Positions 30,360-39,918 of a stretch of 64,000 nucleotides of DNA are shown here, piece after piece. The DNA comes from Aquisphaera giovannonii (lineage in GTDB: Bacteria > Planctomycetota > Planctomycetia > Isosphaerales > Isosphaeraceae), in NCBI RefSeq assembly GCF_008087625.1, contig NZ_CP042997.1, positions 8,370,001-8,434,000 of the forward strand, read 5' to 3'. The notes under the pieces were generated by a model. The model was not told the DNA's origin. It worked only from the letters and a program-made list of their open reading frames with translations, and searched no databases. A program made the position numbers and the translations under genes. Numbering within the stretch: position 1 is the stretch's first letter; the number at the start of each line of letters is the position of its first letter.

Positions 30360-30404
30360 CTACTGAACCCGGCCGGCCCGTCGCGGACCGGCCGCGTTCA
30401 GTAG
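30360..30404. terminator. Hairpin between convergent genes (bidirectional terminator candidate)
   Basis: A 9-bp perfect outer stem (CTACTGAAC / GTTCAGTAG) and a 6-bp inner stem (GGCCGG / CCGGCC) enclose a small loop. The right arm includes the stop codon of the M56 gene. There is no long T-run on either side, so termination would be by the hairpin alone or with Rho. Confidence 0.5.
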
Positions 30405-33400
30405 TCTTCCTCCTCGTCGATCGGCCAGACCTGGAGGAACCTCCGCTCCAGCCGCCGCCACCGCTCGGGTCCCGGCGGGATGGCGAGCACGGTGACGACG
30501 GCCTGCCGCATCCGCTCGCGGAGCGACTCCCGCCCCTCCTCCCCCGCCTCGTCCGGGAACCGGCCGATCAGCGACGCCGCCTGGTGAGGCGCGATGAACG
30601 CCGCCGCAGTCACCAGAGACTCCGCCTGGAACGAGGTGTCCCGGCCGCCGGTCGTCGTCAGCTTGTCGAGCTGCGTGCGGATCAGGCCGTCGAGGACCCG
30701 GCGCCCGAGGTCGCGATCATACCGCGCGACCATCGCCGCCACGCGGGCCCCCGCGATCAGCGGGATCTCCGCCCGGCCGTCGTCTCCCCGATACGCCGGG
30801 CGCATCGCGAGGGTCCGCCAGATGGCCTCGCGGACCCGCGTCGGGTCGACCTCCTCGACGATGGGCAGCAGCCCCGCGGCCGCCGTGCAGGCCATGGCCA
30901 GCCCATCCCACTGGTCCTGATTCCCGCGTGATGTCGCGTCGAGCAGGTCGAAGGCCTCGTCCAGGAGCTTGCCGGCCAGCCTGCGGTCGCCCTTCGCCCG
31001 GGCGATCCCGAGCGCCATGGCGGCGAGGGCCCGGGCCTTGTCCCGATAGTTGGTCATGACCGTCCGGGCCAGGTTGAGGGCCCGGGCCCGGTCGACGGCG
31101 ACCATCCGGTAGCAGACGCGCTGGATGTACGTGTCGCGGAAGTTGGGCCACGAATCGCGCATCGTCCGGACGATGCGCTCGGCCTCGGCGGGATCCTTCG
31201 CGGCGATCCGATGGGCGATGTGCCCCAGGCTGGCCGTGTAGTCCCTGTCCTCCTCGGTCCCCTTGAGGACCTCGAACGCCGCGGGGACGTCGATCAGGGC
31301 GAGTTCCTCGGCGAGCCGCCGCCGGGCGAAGGCCGCGTATCCCGTCGTGGGCAGGCGGAGCGCCGTCTGCTGGCCCTCGCGGAGCAGGCTGGTTGCCAGG
31401 TCCGTGCGGCCCAGGTCCAGGTTCCTCCGCCCCAGGTCGGCCATCCGCAGCACGCGATTCTCGGCCTCGGCCAGGGCGCGGCCGGCGACGAGCGACTCGT
31501 CGAGCAGGGCCAGCCTCCGCGATCGGTCGGCCGCGGGCACTCGACGGCTCAGGAGCTCATAGGCATACGTCCTGGCGTTCGGATCCCGGATGCCCGCGAC
31601 GATTTCCGCGGCCTCGTCGGGGCTATCCGCCGCGATCTCCTCGGCAAGCCCGCCGCGCAAGTATCCATTCCGGTTCGCCGCATCCTCGGGCGGGAGGCGG
31701 TCGACGAACTCGCGGGCCCGGGCAGGGTCCACCCTGGCGACGATGCGAAGGATCCAGTCGAGGTTGCGGACCTTCGGGTCCTTGAGGGCCCGCTCGGCAT
31801 CGTCGTCGAAGACGACATGGATCAGCTTCTTCTCCTGCTCGCGACTCATCGCGGGAGGCGAGCTTCGGAGAGGAACCGGCGCCGGGCCATCGGCCCTCTC
31901 GAGCGTGATGTCGGCCGTCGTCGCACCGGCCTCGATGAGCCTGCCGGCGAACCGGTATCCCTCCTTCGCCGCGAACACGAAGGCCGGCTCGGCGAAGATC
32001 CCGGACAGGCGATAACGGCCCGCCTGGTCGGTTTCCACCTCTTCCGAATTCGGGCCGTCGCCGGCCTGCCGGACCTTCGCCCCCGGGACGGGATTGCCGC
32101 CCGGATCGAGGATCCTCCCCTCCACGGCCCGCAATCGCCGGAGCACCACGTCCCCGAGCTTCGGGGCCGTATCGGGCCCGAGGGCCAGCCAGGGCGAGCC
32201 ATCCGACATCAGGTGCCCGGCGCCGGGGTCGACTTCGGCGCGATAGTCGAACCCGCGTTTGATCCGTCGGGCCGTCGTGAATCGCCCTGCCTCGTCGGTA
32301 CGGATCTCGCCCGCGCCGTCGAGCCGGAGATCCTCGGCAGAGGCGTCGTCCTTCATGCGCCGGACTTGGAGCCGGATGGGAGCCCGGGCGACCGGTGCGC
32401 CGGTCGTGTCGACCACGCGACCGGAGAGGGCGACCGTGTTCGCGTCGCTGATCACCAGCTTGACCGGCTCGTCGCGGCCGGCGGCGGCGGGCTGCGGCGA
32501 GGCCGTCCTCGCCTCGTCGCGCTCGGCCTCGAGCATCACGTTGGCCCCCGCGTGGATGCCCTGGAGGACGAAATCGCCGCGGGGCGACGTGCTCGCGCTC
32601 GCGTTGAATCTCGAGCCGAGATGCAGCGTCGCGCCATTCGGCTGCTTGACCCCGGGCCCGATGCGGTCCCACGTGGCCACGACGCGGGCCCCCGCGACCG
32701 GCCGTCTCGCCTCGTCCGCGACGACTCCCCGCAAGGCCACGCCCCGCTCCAACTCGATCGGCGGCAATTCCTGGCCGTCGGCGACGACCTCGGGCATCTC
32801 GACCCCGCGGGTCAGCCGGATGTGTGCTTCGGGAGCCTCCAGGAGGCAGAATACCTTCTGGCCCGGCGGCGAGAGCACTTCGAATCGGCCCCGTTCGTCG
32901 CTCCTCGCCATGACGGGAGTGATCGGGGCGTTGCCCATCCAGCTGTGGAGCCGAACGCCCGCCCCCGCGACGGGCACGCCCGTCCCTTTCTCCCGGATTG
33001 TCCCCCGGACGCGCATCCAGCGGACCAGCGGGACGACGATGCGGACGACCCCGCCCTCGGCATGGACCTCCTTCACGAGCAGGTCGATCGGACGGTGGAC
33101 GGCGTCGTCCGGCAGGGTCGGCCAGGCGCTCAGGTTGCCGGGCAGGAGGTGGTCCCCGGAGAACGCGCCCCGGTCGTCGGTGATGACCTCGGTTTCCGTC
33201 GTGATCCATCCGGCGTCGGCCGGCTCCGTCGATGCGGAAAGCCAGAGCCTCAGCCCGCGGACCGCCGAGGGCTCCGTCGCGGTCACCCGGCCGGTCACGG
33301 CGACAGTCGCGGCGAGCTTCAGCTCCGCGCCGTCCGGGAACCCCTTCGGCCGATGGAAGACCTGGGCCCCGCCCCCCGGCGGCTCGACCCGGACGGCCTC

Positions 33401-34972
33401 GATGGAACCGCCGGACGGCCCGAGCAGCCGCGCGGAGCCTTCGCCGTCCGTCCTGGAGGCCAGCCGCTCGGCCAGCGGCTCGGGGAGTCGCAGCGGAGTT
33501 TCGCGGAGGGTGGCCGGCGTAACCTTCGCCGCGGCGAGGGGCCGGCCCTCGGCATCCGTGATGCGCAGGGACGTCTGCGAGGCGGGCGAGAGCGCGACCC
33601 GGATTGGGCGATCGGGATCGCCGCCCGACCGCGCGGGCCCGGCCTGCAGCATGGCGCGGCCGATGCCGTGCGTCTCGTGGTAGGACCAGACGGCCCGCGT
33701 CCCGATAGCCGGCCCCTCGAGGCGAGAGTCGTCCCAGGCTAGACGATATCGCCCCTCGGAATCGGTGCGCGCGTCGTCCAGCGAGATGGTCCTCGACTCC
33801 GGGTACGTCTCCGCGACGATCCAGACGTCCGCCCCCGGCACGGGCTTCCCCGCGGCGTCGATGACCGTCCCGGTCAGGGTCCGCCGGTCCTCGACGGCCG
33901 CCCGGGCCTGCGGGGCGCCGGGGATGAGGAGCAGGAACGCCGCGGCGAGCGACAGGGTCGATAGGGCAAGCGTCCCTGCCATCGCGCGGGAGGTCGGCTC
34001 CTCGGCCGGCATGACGCCCAGGACCCTCCGGATCCGCTTCAGCAGGGTCCCGCCCCGCGCCGACGGGGCGAGCGACCAGGTCCCTTGCCGGATCTCTTCG
34101 AGCGCGGCCAGGGCCCTCGCATAGTCGAGCGGGTCGCCGCAGCAGGCGACGGCCAGGTCGTCGCAGCAGTTCTCCCGTTCGGCTCGAATGCGCGACGAAA
34201 GCCACCAGGCCGCCGGGTGGAAGAAGAACAGGGTCTCGATCACACTCTGAGCGAGATTGACGAGGTAATCGTGCCGGCGGATGTGCGCCAGCTCGTGGCC
34301 GAGGATGAGCGCGAGCTGGTCCGGGGGCAGCCCGCTCAACGCCGAGGCCGGCAGCAGGACGACCGGCCGGATCCAGCCGACCACCATCGGCACCTGGACC
34401 CTCGCCGATTCCAGGAGCCGGACCGGCCTCCGCAGCCCCAGCCGATCGCGGAGCTTCGCGAGGGTCCGCTCCCATCCTTCCCCGACCGGGCGGACGCCCC
34501 GCCGGACGAGCCCGCGGAGCACCAGCCAGCCCCCGGCCAGGCGCGCCGAGAGCACGATGACGCCCAGCCCCCAGCAGGCGACGAGGGCCGGCACCCACGG
34601 CTCGAGTCGGCCTCGGAGCGTCGGCCGGACCGGCCGCGCCCGGCGCGTCCCCGATGCCAACGCCTCGCGCTCCCGGGCCTCGCGATCGGCCTCCCGGGTC
34701 GTCGGTGCCGGGGGGCCGGTGGCGGACCTCGGCGCGGCGGCCGGGGCCCCGAGCCGGGCGAAGGTCGCCGCCGGCCAGGCCGCCATGATCGCGAGCGCCG
34801 CGCAGCCGGCCAGGTAGCGGGCATTCGCCGACCGGCCCCGGAGCATCGCGAACGCCGCGGCCACGGCCGCCGCCACGGCCGCGAGCTGCCACGTCGAATG
34901 GATCAGCGTCCATCCCAATCGCATGAGGAGCGGGCTTGCCGAGGCACGACCCAGGATCGCCGCGATGTCCAT
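30398..34972 (-). CDS. Giant BlaR1-like M56 metallopeptidase with carboxypeptidase-regulatory-like repeats
   Basis: 1524 residues. The N-terminal 350 residues are an M56 (BlaR1/MecR1-type) membrane protease: hydrophobic segments, zinc motif HELAH (226-230), downstream E267 in RAERENCCDD, and a last membrane segment (LALSTLSLAAAFLLLIPG). Beyond it, about 360-1090, are several CarboxypepD_reg-like beta-sandwich units (GTVIDAAGKPVPGADVW; GTIREKGTGVPVAGAGV; GVVADEARRPVAGARV; GRVVDTTGAPVARAPI; GRILDPGGNPVPGAKV). The last 430 residues are helical and Ala/Arg/Glu-rich. It is 3 bases downstream of the BlaI-type repressor, giving a BlaR/BlaI-like pair, but with no penicillin-binding domain; the extracellular repeats may be the sensor. 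Confidence 0.9.
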   Translation of the reverse strand: MDIAAILGRASASPLLMRLGWTLIHSTWQLAAVAAAVAAAFAMLRGRSANARYLAGCAALAIMAAWPAATFARLGAPAAAPRSATGPPAPTTREADREAREREALASGTRRARPVRPTLRGRLEPWVPALVACWGLGVIVLSARLAGGWLVLRGLVRRGVRPVGEGWERTLAKLRDRLGLRRPVRLLESARVQVPMVVGWIRPVVLLPASALSGLPPDQLALILGHELAHIRRHDYLVNLAQSVIETLFFFHPAAWWLSSRIRAERENCCDDLAVACCGDPLDYARALAALEEIRQGTWSLAPSARGGTLLKRIRRVLGVMPAEEPTSRAMAGTLALSTLSLAAAFLLLIPGAPQARAAVEDRRTLTGTVIDAAGKPVPGADVWIVAETYPESRTISLDDARTDSEGRYRLAWDDSRLEGPAIGTRAVWSYHETHGIGRAMLQAGPARSGGDPDRPIRVALSPASQTSLRITDAEGRPLAAAKVTPATLRETPLRLPEPLAERLASRTDGEGSARLLGPSGGSIEAVRVEPPGGGAQVFHRPKGFPDGAELKLAATVAVTGRVTATEPSAVRGLRLWLSASTEPADAGWITTETEVITDDRGAFSGDHLLPGNLSAWPTLPDDAVHRPIDLLVKEVHAEGGVVRIVVPLVRWMRVRGTIREKGTGVPVAGAGVRLHSWMGNAPITPVMARSDERGRFEVLSPPGQKVFCLLEAPEAHIRLTRGVEMPEVVADGQELPPIELERGVALRGVVADEARRPVAGARVVATWDRIGPGVKQPNGATLHLGSRFNASASTSPRGDFVLQGIHAGANVMLEAERDEARTASPQPAAAGRDEPVKLVISDANTVALSGRVVDTTGAPVARAPIRLQVRRMKDDASAEDLRLDGAGEIRTDEAGRFTTARRIKRGFDYRAEVDPGAGHLMSDGSPWLALGPDTAPKLGDVVLRRLRAVEGRILDPGGNPVPGAKVRQAGDGPNSEEVETDQAGRYRLSGIFAEPAFVFAAKEGYRFAGRLIEAGATTADITLERADGPAPVPLRSSPPAMSREQEKKLIHVVFDDDAERALKDPKVRNLDWILRIVARVDPARAREFVDRLPPEDAANRNGYLRGGLAEEIAADSPDEAAEIVAGIRDPNARTYAYELLSRRVPAADRSRRLALLDESLVAGRALAEAENRVLRMADLGRRNLDLGRTDLATSLLREGQQTALRLPTTGYAAFARRRLAEELALIDVPAAFEVLKGTEEDRDYTASLGHIAHRIAAKDPAEAERIVRTMRDSWPNFRDTYIQRVCYRMVAVDRARALNLARTVMTNYRDKARALAAMALGIARAKGDRRLAGKLLDEAFDLLDATSRGNQDQWDGLAMACTAAAGLLPIVEEVDPTRVREAIWRTLAMRPAYRGDDGRAEIPLIAGARVAAMVARYDRDLGRRVLDGLIRTQLDKLTTTGGRDTSFQAESLVTAAAFIAPHQAASLIGRFPDEAGEEGRESLRERMRQAVVTVLAIPPGPERWRRLERRFLQVWPIDEEEDY

Positions 34973-34975
34973 CGA

Positions 34976-35368
34976 TCACCCCCCCTGCTCGCGCTCCATT
35001 CGCTCGATGAGCTCCCGGATCTGCGACAGCTCCTCCGGCGGCGTCTTCCGCGACGAGAGCGCCTGCATCACGAGCTTCAGCGCCGAGCCGCCGAAGGCAC
35101 GCTCCAGGAGGTCGCCCACGAGCTGACGCTGCGTCCTCGCCTCCGTTTGAGCAGCCCGGTAGACGTGGGGCCGGCTCGACTCGTCGCGGGCCACGAGCCC
35201 CTTCTCCAGCATGATCTGGAGCAGCTTCAGCACCGTCGTGTAGCCCGTGGGCTTCGCCCGCGACGCCGCCTCGTGGACCTGCTTCAGCGTGCCCGGCCCT
35301 TCGCGCCAGAGCACGCGGAGGATCGCCAGCTCCGCCTCCGTGGGCCTCGGGATCTTGCCGCCCGCCAT
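34976..35368 (-). CDS. BlaI/MecI/CopY-family transcriptional repressor
   Basis: 130 residues from ATG 35368, chosen because GGAGG lies 8 bases upstream; a GTG at 35386 has no ribosome site. Winged helix: PTEAELAILRVLWREGPGTLKQVHEAAS, then TGYTTVLKLLQIMLEKGLVARDE with the recognition helix. The C-terminal dimerisation and cleavage region ends LIERMEREQ. In BlaI/BlaR systems the M56 protease, once activated, leads to cleavage of the repressor; here the M56 gene starts 3 bases after the stop. Two matching palindromes lie in its promoter, indicating autorepression. Confidence 0.94.
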   Translation of the reverse strand: MAGGKIPRPTEAELAILRVLWREGPGTLKQVHEAASRAKPTGYTTVLKLLQIMLEKGLVARDESSRPHVYRAAQTEARTQRQLVGDLLERAFGGSALKLVMQALSSRKTPPEELSQIRELIERMEREQGG

Positions 35369-35403
35369 CCGGATCGCCTCCGTCACATGGAAAGAACGCG
35401 CCG

Positions 35404-35432
35404 ATATTACGAAGGGCTTCGTAAGAAGTCAA
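35404..35432 (-). promoter_or_regulatory. Promoter of the BlaI-M56 operon
   Basis: On the minus strand: TTGACT (35427-35432), 17-bp spacer, TAATAT (35404-35409). The -10 lies 35 bases from the ATG at 35368. Almost the whole spacer is occupied by the operator palindrome. Confidence 0.75.
35407..35424. promoter_or_regulatory. BlaI-type operator 1 (TTACGAAG-GG-CTTCGTAA)
   Basis: 8-bp perfect inverted repeats around a 2-bp centre, placed between -35 and -10 of the operon promoter. Binding here would block RNA polymerase. Confidence 0.8.
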
Positions 35433-35445
35433 CGAAGCTCTTCGT
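35432..35445. promoter_or_regulatory. BlaI-type operator 2 (ACGAAG-CT-CTTCGT)
   Basis: 6-bp perfect inverted repeats matching operator 1, starting at the -35 edge. The two centres are 23 bp apart, about two helical turns, so two repressor dimers could sit on the same face. Confidence 0.75.
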
Positions 35446-35527
35446 AAACTCGCACGTCCCCCGCCGCCGGGACCGAGTCGCGAGGCGTCTCGCGCCGATT
35501 CCATTCCTGGCCGGCATCGGCCGGGTG

Positions 35528-35533: not shown

Positions 35534-35587
35534 GAGGACGCCGTGCGTGTCATCGACCCCAAGAGATGCGGGATGCCGGGGGCTGCG

Positions 35588-36744: not shown

Positions 36745-37635
36745 ATGTTGCGGCATGCCTCTTTCGTGATGGCCGGGCTCGCGGCCGTCGGCCTGCTTGT
36801 CGGGATCGGGATGGCCATCCGGGCGCACATCCGACGCGCGGGGCGTCTCGCCGCGCCTCCCGGTGAAGGACCGGGCCCGATCCGCCTCGGCTCGGTGCCG
36901 GCCCGGACCGACGACGTCGGCGCGGCGTCCCGTTCTTGGCGTATGCTGCGCTGGCTGCTCGCGCTCCCGCTCCTGGTGCCGATCGCCGCGCTGGTCTTCC
37001 TCGTGATCGCGATCGCACTGCTGGCATGGTTCGCGGCCGTCTTCCTGATCCACCGGGCCTACTGGCTGCGATGGAAGCTCCTCGGCATCCCCATGCCGTA
37101 TCGGAGGCAATGGGAGTCGGACGCGGACGATCGATTCTGGAGCATCATCGAGGCCGACGGGGGGTCGATCCGGGATGAGCCGGAGCAGCAGCTGGAGGCG
37201 ATCCGGAGCCGCCTCCGGCAGAAGAGGCCCGGCTACGCCGACCTCGCGGAGTTCCGGGCCCACCTCGCTCGCAGGATGGCCGACGCATGCACCGCGGACC
37301 TTCGAGCCGCATGCCTCCTGATCCACGGCCGAGATTCCGAGGAGGACTTCGCGAACTTCCGAGCCTGGTTGGTTGCTCGCGGCGAGTCCATCTATCGCGC
37401 GGCCCTGCTCGACGCCGACTCGCTGGCCGACGTGGTCGAACCCTATCGCGACGACTGCCGGCTCGCCGGCCTCCGGGCGGTCGCCGAAGAGGTCTTGCGA
37501 GAGGTGGCGAATGACGGCTTCTTTCAAGGTCCGGCCGCGATCCCGCCTGCAACCATGGAATGCGGCTGGGATTTCGGCGACCCGGAGCAGGTCTCGCGTC
37601 GCCTGCCCCGCCTGGCGGCACTGTATCTGGCCTGA
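36745..37635 (+). CDS. DUF4240-domain protein with N-terminal membrane segments
   Basis: 296 residues. Two hydrophobic segments (about 8-26 and 69-102) precede a DUF4240-like domain that starts FWSIIEADGG and contains EDFANFRAWLVARGESIYRAALLDADSLADV. DUF4240 proteins are usually short and soluble; some occur near toxin-immunity loci, but no toxin is seen here. Function unknown. Third member of a plus-strand run of poorly known genes (35588-37635). Confidence 0.75.
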   Translation: MLRHASFVMAGLAAVGLLVGIGMAIRAHIRRAGRLAAPPGEGPGPIRLGSVPARTDDVGAASRSWRMLRWLLALPLLVPIAALVFLVIAIALLAWFAAVFLIHRAYWLRWKLLGIPMPYRRQWESDADDRFWSIIEADGGSIRDEPEQQLEAIRSRLRQKRPGYADLAEFRAHLARRMADACTADLRAACLLIHGRDSEEDFANFRAWLVARGESIYRAALLDADSLADVVEPYRDDCRLAGLRAVAEEVLREVANDGFFQGPAAIPPATMECGWDFGDPEQVSRRLPRLAALYLA

Positions 37636-37722: not shown

Positions 37723-37833
37723 AGTCGCTGGCCTTTCGAAGCGACGAACTGGACTGCAATTAGTGCCGCAGAAGATGGATAAGGGCGTACCGGGCGGGAT
37801 TCCGCCGGGCGGTGCGCCGCGATGGGGCTGCGC

Positions 37834-38649
37834 ATGCTGGCGAAGCGGATCATCCCCTGCCTCGACGTGAACCACGGCCGGGTGGTCAAGGGGACGAATT
37901 TCCTCAACCTGCGGGACGCCGGCGACCCGGTGGAGGTCGCCGCGCGGTACGACGCGGAGGGGGCGGACGAGCTCGTCTTCCTCGACATCACCGCCAGCCA
38001 CGAGGGGCGGGAGATCCTCTGGGACGTCGTCCGCCGGACGGCCGAGGTCTGCTTCATGCCGCTCACGGTCGGCGGCGGCATCCGCAGCCTGGAGGACATC
38101 CGGGCCCTGCTGAATGCCGGGGCGGACAAGGTCTCGATCAATTCGGCCGCGGTCCGCGACCCGGAGCTCGTCCGCCGGGCGGCCCGACGGTTCGGCAGCC
38201 AGTGCATCGTGGTGAACATCGACCCCAAGCGCGTCACCCGCGAGGGCCGCGAGGCGTGGGAGGTGCACATCAACGGCGGCCGGATCCCGACCGGGCTCGA
38301 GGCGGTCGCCTGGGCGAGAGAGGTCCAGCGCCTGGGCGCGGGGGAGATCGTCCTGACCAGCATGGACGCCGACGGCACCAAGAACGGCTACGACCTGGAG
38401 ATGACCCGGGCCGTGGTCGATGCCGTGGAGGTCCCCGTCGTCGCCTCCGGCGGCGCCGGGAACCCGGAGCACCTGAGGGCCGCCCTGGCCGACGCCGGCG
38501 CGAGCGCGGCGCTGGCGGCGAGCATCTTCCACTATCGCGAGTACTCGATCGCCGATGCCAAGGCCTATCTGGCCGGCCGCGGCGTCCCGGTGCGGCTGGT
38601 CGAGCACGGCGGCCGGGCCCACGCCCCCCCCGCCGTCGCGTCGTCCTGA
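37834..38649 (+). CDS. hisF: Imidazole glycerol phosphate synthase subunit HisF
   Basis: 271 residues from the ATG at 37834 ([12 protein letters not shown], the usual start; an ATG 12 bases upstream is also in frame). It is a TIM-barrel cyclase of histidine biosynthesis that uses ammonia from HisH to form IGP and AICAR. Catalytic D11 and D130 (VVNIDPKRV) are present, with [10 protein letters not shown] and [10 protein letters not shown] phosphate loops. hisH is not adjacent. A His/Ala-rich C-terminal extension of about 15 residues is unremarkable. Confidence 0.96.
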
Positions 38650-38766: not shown

Positions 38767-39918
38767 ATGTCCACCGCGGTCGAAGCGAACGTCGAGGTGC
38801 TGCCCAACGAGCCGGAGGCGAACAAGCTCTTCCGGATGGTGATGAAGTACAAGGGCTCCGACCTCCACCTGAAGGTCGGCGTCGCCCCCTCGATGCGGCT
38901 GGCCGGCGTCCTGCGGCAGATGCAACTCCCCCAGCTCACGACGGCAGACATGGAGCGGCTGATGTACCCGCTGCTGTCGCCCCGGCAGCGGGGCATCCTC
39001 GACGAGGAAGGGGGCGTGGACTTCGCCCACATCATCTACGACGGCGAGAACGAGACCCGATTCCGCGTCAACCTCTTCAAGCAGCGCGGGCGGCTCAGCC
39101 TCGTCGCCCGGCGCGTGAACAACAAGATCCCCAGCTTCGAAGACCTCCACCTGCCCCAGGTCCTCGCCGACATCACCCAGTACGACCAGGGGATCATCAT
39201 CCTCGCGGGCGTCACGGGCTCGGGCAAGTCCACGACGATCGCCTCGATGCTCCAGTACATGAACGAGCGCGAGCGGCTGCACATCGTCACGGTCGAGGAC
39301 CCGATCGAATACACGTTCAAGGACGACAAGTCGATCATCAACCAGCGCGAGGTCGGGATCGACGTCATCGACTGGGACACCGCCCTGAAGCACGCCGTGC
39401 GGCAGGACCCCGACGTCATCCTCGTGGGCGAGATGCGGGACCGCGAGACCTTCAGCGCGGCGATGCACGCGGCCGAGACCGGCCACCTCGTGTTCGGGAC
39501 GATCCACGCCGGCTCGGCCCCGTCCACCATCGGCCGGCTCCTCGACCTCTTCCCCCGGGACATGCACTCCTCGCTGAGGCAGTCGCTGGCGTTCAACCTC
39601 AAGGCGATCATCGCCCAGAAGCTCCTGCCGACGACCAAGGAGCTCGCCGCCAAGGGGACGACCCGCGTGCCGACCAACGAGATCATGCGGATCAACCCGA
39701 CGGTGCGGAAGCTGATCCTCACCGAGGAGGATACGAAGCTCGGCGACGCCATCCGGATCGGCAAGGACGAGGGGATGATGGACTTCACCGAGAGCCTGCG
39801 GCAGCTCGTGGTCAACGAGAAGGTGGAGCGGGCCGTCGCGTTCGAGGTGGCGCCGAGCCCCGAGTCTTTGAAAATGGCGCTCAAGGGGATTACGATCGCT
39901 CAACCTGGTATCTTGTAA
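38767..39918 (+). CDS. pilT: PilT-type twitching/retraction ATPase
   Basis: 383 residues from ATG 38767, with GAGGAG 9 bases upstream. The N-terminal PAS-like region has the SDLHLKVG motif. The ATPase core has Walker A GVTGSGKST (148-156), Asp/His boxes, and ILVGEMRD as Walker B (E222). In type IV pili PilT powers pilus disassembly. It is followed by a PilB-like ATPase and a CvpA-like gene, but no pilin, PilC, PilM-Q genes are nearby. Confidence 0.92.
   Translation: MSTAVEANVEVLPNEPEANKLFRMVMKYKGSDLHLKVGVAPSMRLAGVLRQMQLPQLTTADMERLMYPLLSPRQRGILDEEGGVDFAHIIYDGENETRFRVNLFKQRGRLSLVARRVNNKIPSFEDLHLPQVLADITQYDQGIIILAGVTGSGKSTTIASMLQYMNERERLHIVTVEDPIEYTFKDDKSIINQREVGIDVIDWDTALKHAVRQDPDVILVGEMRDRETFSAAMHAAETGHLVFGTIHAGSAPSTIGRLLDLFPRDMHSSLRQSLAFNLKAIIAQKLLPTTKELAAKGTTRVPTNEIMRINPTVRKLILTEEDTKLGDAIRIGKDEGMMDFTESLRQLVVNEKVERAVAFEVAPSPESLKMALKGITIAQPGIL

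Follow-up and report, generated by a model that had tools for sequence, protein, structure and literature searches.

The stretch of DNA analysed here (the window, 64,000 nucleotides of the Aquisphaera giovannonii genome) carries on its minus strand a gene for a BlaI-type repressor that is followed, after a gap of 3 bases (repressor end at 34976, next ATG at 34972), by a gene for an M56 protease, an arrangement that had been proposed in the original prediction and that Pfam matches confirm. Upstream of the repressor lies a promoter-like element overlapped by two inverted repeats. The features are as follows.

30398-34972, minus strand: M56 (BlaR1-type) membrane metalloprotease, 1524 aa; PF05569, 98.6 bits (cut-off 31)
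34976-35368, minus strand: BlaI-type repressor, 130 aa from ATG; Penicillinase_R PF03965, 86.4 bits (cut-off 22.6)
35404-35409, minus strand: -10 hexamer TAATAT, read from the sequence
35407-35424, no strand assigned: proximal box, perfect 18-bp inverted repeat TTACGAAG-GG-CTTCGTAA, 0 mismatches
35427-35432, minus strand: -35 hexamer TTGACT, read from the sequence
35430-35447, no strand assigned: distal box, 18-bp inverted repeat with 2 mismatches, core ACGAAG-CT-CTTCGT

The ATG at 35368 is the likelier start of the repressor over the GTG at 35386, because it lies 8 nt after a GGAGG and is kept in the same-genus orthologue. In the AlphaFold model of the repressor (mean pLDDT 83.2) the recognition helix comprises residues 43-56 and includes Lys48. 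A Foldseek search with this model returned 13 hits at E ≤0.001, all of them MecI, BlaI or Rv1846c chains, as befits a winged-helix fold, with TM values of 0.58-0.65 by query and an rmsd of 7-8 Å across the whole length; the fold matches include the DNA complexes 1sax, 2d45 and 1xsd. By NCBIfam the repressor scores below the BlaI_of_BCL penicillinase repressor model (37.5 bits, cut-off 180) and is not a CopY/TcrY copper repressor (TIGR02698, 37.6 bits, cut-off 121.95), and the M56 system falls below blaR1_generic (71.3 bits, cut-off 400). The M56 protein has the HExxH motif as HELAH at residue 226, hydrophobic segments at 23-41, 54-72, 127-145, 192-210 and 332-350 with a weak one at 1357-1375, and a long C-terminal part that carries carboxypeptidase-regulatory-like domains. 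About 1170 residues lie past segment 332-350, and the end of the protein is helical-looking and bears no Pfam name. The neighbours are a DUF4240 protein (36745-37635), a His_biosynth-family protein (37822-38649) and a T2SSE-family ATPase (38767-39918).

The two hexamers are separated by a 17-bp spacer (35426-35410, minus strand). The proximal box occupies this spacer and reaches 3 bases into the -10, and the distal box covers the TTG that opens the -35, where its two mismatches (35430-35431) also fall; the centres of the boxes are 23 bp apart. Transcription from this promoter would be expected to start near 35397. The promoter at 35432-35404, the palindrome across its spacer and the second copy at the -35 thus all stand as predicted. 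Allowing up to 3 mismatches, the window contains the palindrome twice, compared with 0.01 times on average for 100 dinucleotide shuffles, and in the 10.5-Mb genome it is found at 0-2 mismatches at this locus only and at 3 mismatches at 7 further places. In the same-genus orthologue (89% identical, genome G002) both boxes are kept, the -10 TAATAT is identical and CTGACT stands at the -35 position, and TTGAC is found in 3 aligned, more remote loci. The innermost G/C of the palindrome is variable among relatives, and the conserved part is TACGAA-N4-TTCGTA. A scan of 99 genomes with the strict palindrome, inner G/C included, found it in the own genome only, a result that arose because the variable centre had been taken as fixed, and this apparent non-conservation was discarded.

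Homologues of the repressor were collected by a profile search of genome contigs from many phyla, and the best 80 among the matches listed were inspected. An exact CGAA-N4-TTCG lies within 260 bp upstream of 63 of these 80; 35 have it at least twice, spaced 21-23 bp apart in 30 of the 35, 28 have a single exact core and 17 have none. Thirteen of the last group, Colwellia and Geothrix among them, have a box that departs from TACGAA-N4-TTCGTA at a single position; L101 has a pair of boxes with two mismatches, and L092, L099 and L135 have none within two, and therefore two good boxes are not always present.

We also assembled a protein-selected set of 204 sequences, in which the homologues were joined by the BlaI of A. 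giovannonii (tallies covering 16 of its 19 BlaI genes) and its relatives; loci found by the pattern were excluded, and duplicates and HMM domains of less than 25 bits or starting past profile position 12 were dropped. A subclade of 89 members, delimited by recognition helix and profile score alone, was compared with the other 115 BlaI, 113 of which come from this genome and its planctomycete relatives. Exact CGAA-N4-TTCG is present upstream of 72/89 subclade members against 3/115 of the others, and the corresponding figures are 88/89 against 26/115 when one mismatch is allowed, 68/89 against 3/115 for exact TACGA-N6-TCGTA, 57/89 against 2/115 for two boxes 21-23 bp apart (at most one mismatch each) and 40/89 against 0/115 for CGAA-N4-TTCG merging into [TC]TGAC. 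In a larger set that includes pattern-found loci the exact core was found in 85/102 stretches, compared with a mean of 1.15 over 20 shuffles. A FastTree phylogeny was built for 157 of these 204 sequences, namely roughly half of the named subclade members and the other BlaI of at least 70 bits. The window BlaI falls within a starred set of 49, of which 47 carry this operator, and on this tree the operator label requires 7 changes, compared with 43.2 after shuffling.

Operator-bearing members are spread over 11 named phyla, of which five rest on one or two assemblies, most named records being metagenome assemblies: Acidobacteriota (27), Planctomycetota (13), Bacteroidota (11), Pseudomonadota (7), Verrucomicrobiota (6), Myxococcota (4), Hydrogenedentota (2) and Poribacteria, Sumerlaeota, Rhodothermota and Gemmatimonadota (1 each), with 13 further members lacking a named phylum. 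Since the operator follows a BlaI subclade through these phyla and is mostly absent from the other planctomycete BlaI, the label "planctomycete-type" that had been suggested for it is unsupported and too narrow.

The same association is seen when DNA is scanned blind to genes. A double ACGAA-N4-TTCGT box occurs in 10 of 392 genomes of the phylum, at 13 places, with 0/392 for a reversed-pattern control, and 12 of the 13 places precede a BlaI-M56 pair, the exception (L062) lying before a PQQ-repeat gene. In 50 genomes, picked because the homologue search had shown that they hold such a BlaI, the double box was found in 35 genomes at 45 places (reversed control 0/50); one genome is shared by the two scans, G187 and G517 giving the same place. 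BlaI and M56 lie downstream in 36 of the 41 loci examined, where the BlaI match begins no more than about 230 bp away, and together with L084 and an overlapping place in L198 this brings the places at BlaI to 38/45. The palindromes are thus conserved upstream of related BlaI-M56 pairs, the comparison by which the original prediction was to be judged. The remaining 7 places are before a DUF5916 gene (L182), at L188, at L291 (no Pfam match in the frame tried) and, in Hymenobacter, before genes for a TonB-dependent receptor plug with CarboxypepD_reg (L172, L174, L186 and L187). The spacing over the 45 places is 21 bp in 15, 22 bp in 21, 23 bp in 4 and longer in 5, so that the 23 bp of the window is less common than 21-22 bp (36/45), and one box merges into TTCGTTGAC (-35) in 34/45. 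Triple boxes in 21-22 bp steps were seen ahead of BlaI-M56 operons at L061, L070 and L198, two operons with a triple box coming from the scan of the phylum, and some Hymenobacter sites are triplets with wider spacing, e.g. 27 and 31 bp.

Two other patterns were less productive. A single-box scan of the family (45 genomes) gave 11 places against 6 in the control; six were at subclade BlaI (G000, G002, G006, G010 and G015 twice), and the other five (G032, G029 twice, G064 and G024) are about the control number. A strict double box that required TA at each end was found in only 8 of 42 genomes, because the distal box, where it merges with the -35, frequently ends in TTCGTT. This pattern did reveal multiple copies in single Hymenobacter genomes, and for the 50-genome scan it was replaced by the relaxed one.

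Pooling 168 boxes gives a half-site of T(0.72)-A-C-G-A-A(0.83) with a loose centre, ACGA being itself a search requirement (at ≤1 mismatch). The common recognition helix of the subclade is GYTTxLKxxQIM, and in the profile alignment Lys48 corresponds to Thr47 of MecI, Leu47 to Arg46 and Thr44 to Lys43, three MecI positions which we take to contact bases. Where the helix column holds Lys (n=95) the operator is of the CGA type in 87 cases and another in 8; with Ser (n=32) it is TACGG in 21, TACT-type in 7, CGA in 1 and none of these in 3; and with Thr (n=65) it is CGA in 4 and none of these in 61. Proteins of a sister class, with Ser in place of the Lys, have TACGG-N6-CCGTA boxes in the same promoter layout, a box merging into CCGTTGAC in 10/24 and lying 22 bp from the next in 11 of the 15 with two listed boxes; these counts lean on the 1-mismatch rule (14/115 exact, 24/115 with one mismatch), and some of the 1-mismatch members (e.g. 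L022, L230 and L238) look doubtful. Both classes are held by the A. giovannonii genome, Lys at the window locus and TACGG at L020.

Lys48 as the sole determinant was rejected, as a remote branch with an ATVQKLL-type helix has Lys in the same column and no such box. Independent pairs on starred branches number 2 for Lys and 3 for Ser versus TACGG/TACT, too few for either outcome, and the tie between helix and operator is, as read from sequences, a clade-level association and not a demonstrated code. A BlaI specificity code is conceivable, and we hold it tentatively, at somewhat less than even odds: G-Y-T-T-x-L-Lys48 would read TACGAA-N4-TTCGTA and the sister A-Y-T-[ST]-V-[ML]-Ser would read TACGG-N6-CCGTA, the fifth base of the half-site differing within one layout (the distal box merging into TTGAC and the proximal box occupying the spacer, usually at a distance of 22 bp). 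On this reading the 19 BlaI genes of this genome could stand at the head of parallel self-repressed sensor channels insulated from one another, and the Lys type would have reached at least 11 phyla without losing its operator.

Taking these data together, we propose, with a probability of about 0.88, that the window site is the autoregulatory operator-promoter of the BlaI-M56 operon, where paired BlaI dimers would repress and the M56 protease would relieve repression. Each inverted repeat (core TACGAA-N4-TTCGTA) is expected to take one BlaI dimer. The proximal dimer would lie between the two hexamers and the distal dimer, some two helical turns away, at the edge of the -35, and the two together would exclude RNA polymerase from the promoter. 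The subclade recognition helix, G42-Y-T-T-x-L-K48, would read the TACGA half-site. By analogy with BlaR1/BlaI, relief would come from proteolysis: the M56 membrane protease, triggered via its other domains, would inactivate BlaI, and the derepressed operon would yield more sensor and more repressor. The output of the system may be the M56 protein itself; its C-terminal domain is of the type that starts the Hymenobacter TonB receptors under the same operator, and a link between this domain and the output is speculative.

The operator could instead serve a wider regulon with separate output genes, autoregulation being only part of its role, as the PQQ-repeat, DUF5916 and TonB-dependent receptor genes behind double boxes elsewhere would suggest (1/13 and 7/45 places). 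In A. giovannonii itself, however, the conserved consensus at ≤2 mismatches gives 52 matches, close to the 45 of the control, and no further target is detectable; with the full palindrome unique at 0-2 mismatches, a dispersed own-genome regulon of the kind originally suggested is rejected at this sensitivity, and therefore, to judge by the sequence, the loop is closed. We consider the wider regulon unlikely, while giving it more weight than any of the alternatives that follow. At one mismatch the consensus also occurs, besides the operator, at L297 and at L298, the latter inside a long open frame.

Bound BlaI might also act on a divergent gene, for example as an activator, since an open frame at 35543 (+) begins about 100 bp off and PetR, a BlaI-family protein, is needed both for petJ activation and for petE repression (passages of PMC7896320). 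This frame is without a Pfam match and may not be a gene, and the hexamers overlapped by the boxes face BlaI, which makes such an action quite improbable. Marginally less probable still is binding by a regulator other than the adjacent BlaI. The genome has 19 BlaI-family genes (L010-L028) from which such a regulator could come, but the boxes follow one BlaI subclade across the named phyla, gene-blind scans place them beside BlaI, and the upstream stretches of the other own-genome BlaI genes show, by eye, many differing palindromes, e.g. TTTCTATAGAAA at L021 and TACGG boxes at L020. That the palindromes arose by chance in an intergenic stretch can practically be dismissed, for although CGAA-N4-TTCG at ≤1 mismatch is also met upstream of 26/115 other BlaI and in 18.9/102 shuffled stretches, the shuffles of the window, the exact-core count (in a set including pattern-found loci) and the empty reversed-pattern controls all speak against it.

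The BlaI-M56 pair is a known kind of system. The BlaI/MecI and BlaR1/MecR1 proteins of staphylococci and Bacillus licheniformis share with the window locus the Penicillinase_R winged helix, the adjacent M56 zinc protease, inverted-repeat operators and, as we infer here, autoregulation. Their general operator consensus is TACA-N2-TGTA, whereas the boxes here are TACGAA-N4-TTCGTA, a difference rightly pointed out beforehand, and unlike BlaR1/MecR1 the window M56 protein has no penicillin-binding sensor domain among the 7 Pfam families matched. The B. licheniformis OP1 probe contains TTACATATGTAA (passages of PMC3305447), and in S. aureus BlaR1 cleaves BlaI directly (PMC9834060).

Two BlaI proteins of Clostridium thermocellum, BlaI_0696 and BlaI_1845, likewise have paired inverted repeats upstream of the operons that encode them; their regulons comprise three operons and one operon, and binding by four protomers was put forward by the authors from DAP-seq and site layout, EMSA having been made on single motifs (passages of PMC8457756). 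The motifs differ from ours (GTCTAT inverted repeats 5 nt apart and a GACTAT repeat), and therefore TACA-N2-TGTA does not bound the protein family; that study deals with one bacterium and, in the section concerned, makes no link to helix class or phyla (PMC8457756). Synechocystis PetR-PetP likewise joins a BlaI-family regulator to a BlaR1-family protease outside beta-lactam resistance, with a regulon given as four proteins, but its targets are petE and petJ and its response is to copper (passages of the commentary PMC7896320). The best sequence match having a solved structure is M. tuberculosis Rv1846c (BlaI, 2g9w), with Ala at the Lys48 position; no operator sequence for it is given in the text passages of PMC12565901, where the motif is in a figure only, or was returned by a term search of PMC8265638. 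Among the papers listed by searches of the open-licence literature, which misses most subscription papers, none described this operator class, its layout or its phylum span, and none dealt with the operators of BlaI-M56 pairs from Planctomycetes, Acidobacteria, Myxococcus or Hymenobacter, an absence that carries little weight.

The paired operator looks like an old and widespread self-control switch and not a local oddity. In the literature examined, BlaI operators are described for few organisms and mostly in beta-lactam resistance, compared with 19 BlaI-family genes in this genome alone, and an operator that can be found from sequence across phyla would allow BlaI-M56 pairs and their targets to be located in any genome. 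The operator classes suggest a testable specificity code between bases and residues, and the locus raises the question of what role is played by a sensor-repressor pair whose sole visible target is itself.

Two minor observations concern the distribution of the repressor. The BlaI at L086 comes from a 9-Mb genome recorded as Comamonas sp. KCTC 72670; its neighbours on the tree include Myxococcaceae, and the name on the record may be wrong. Within the genus of A. giovannonii, the best match to the window BlaI in genome G001 has an E-value of 7e-15, whereas G002 has the 89% identical orthologue, and therefore the system is patchy even inside the genus.
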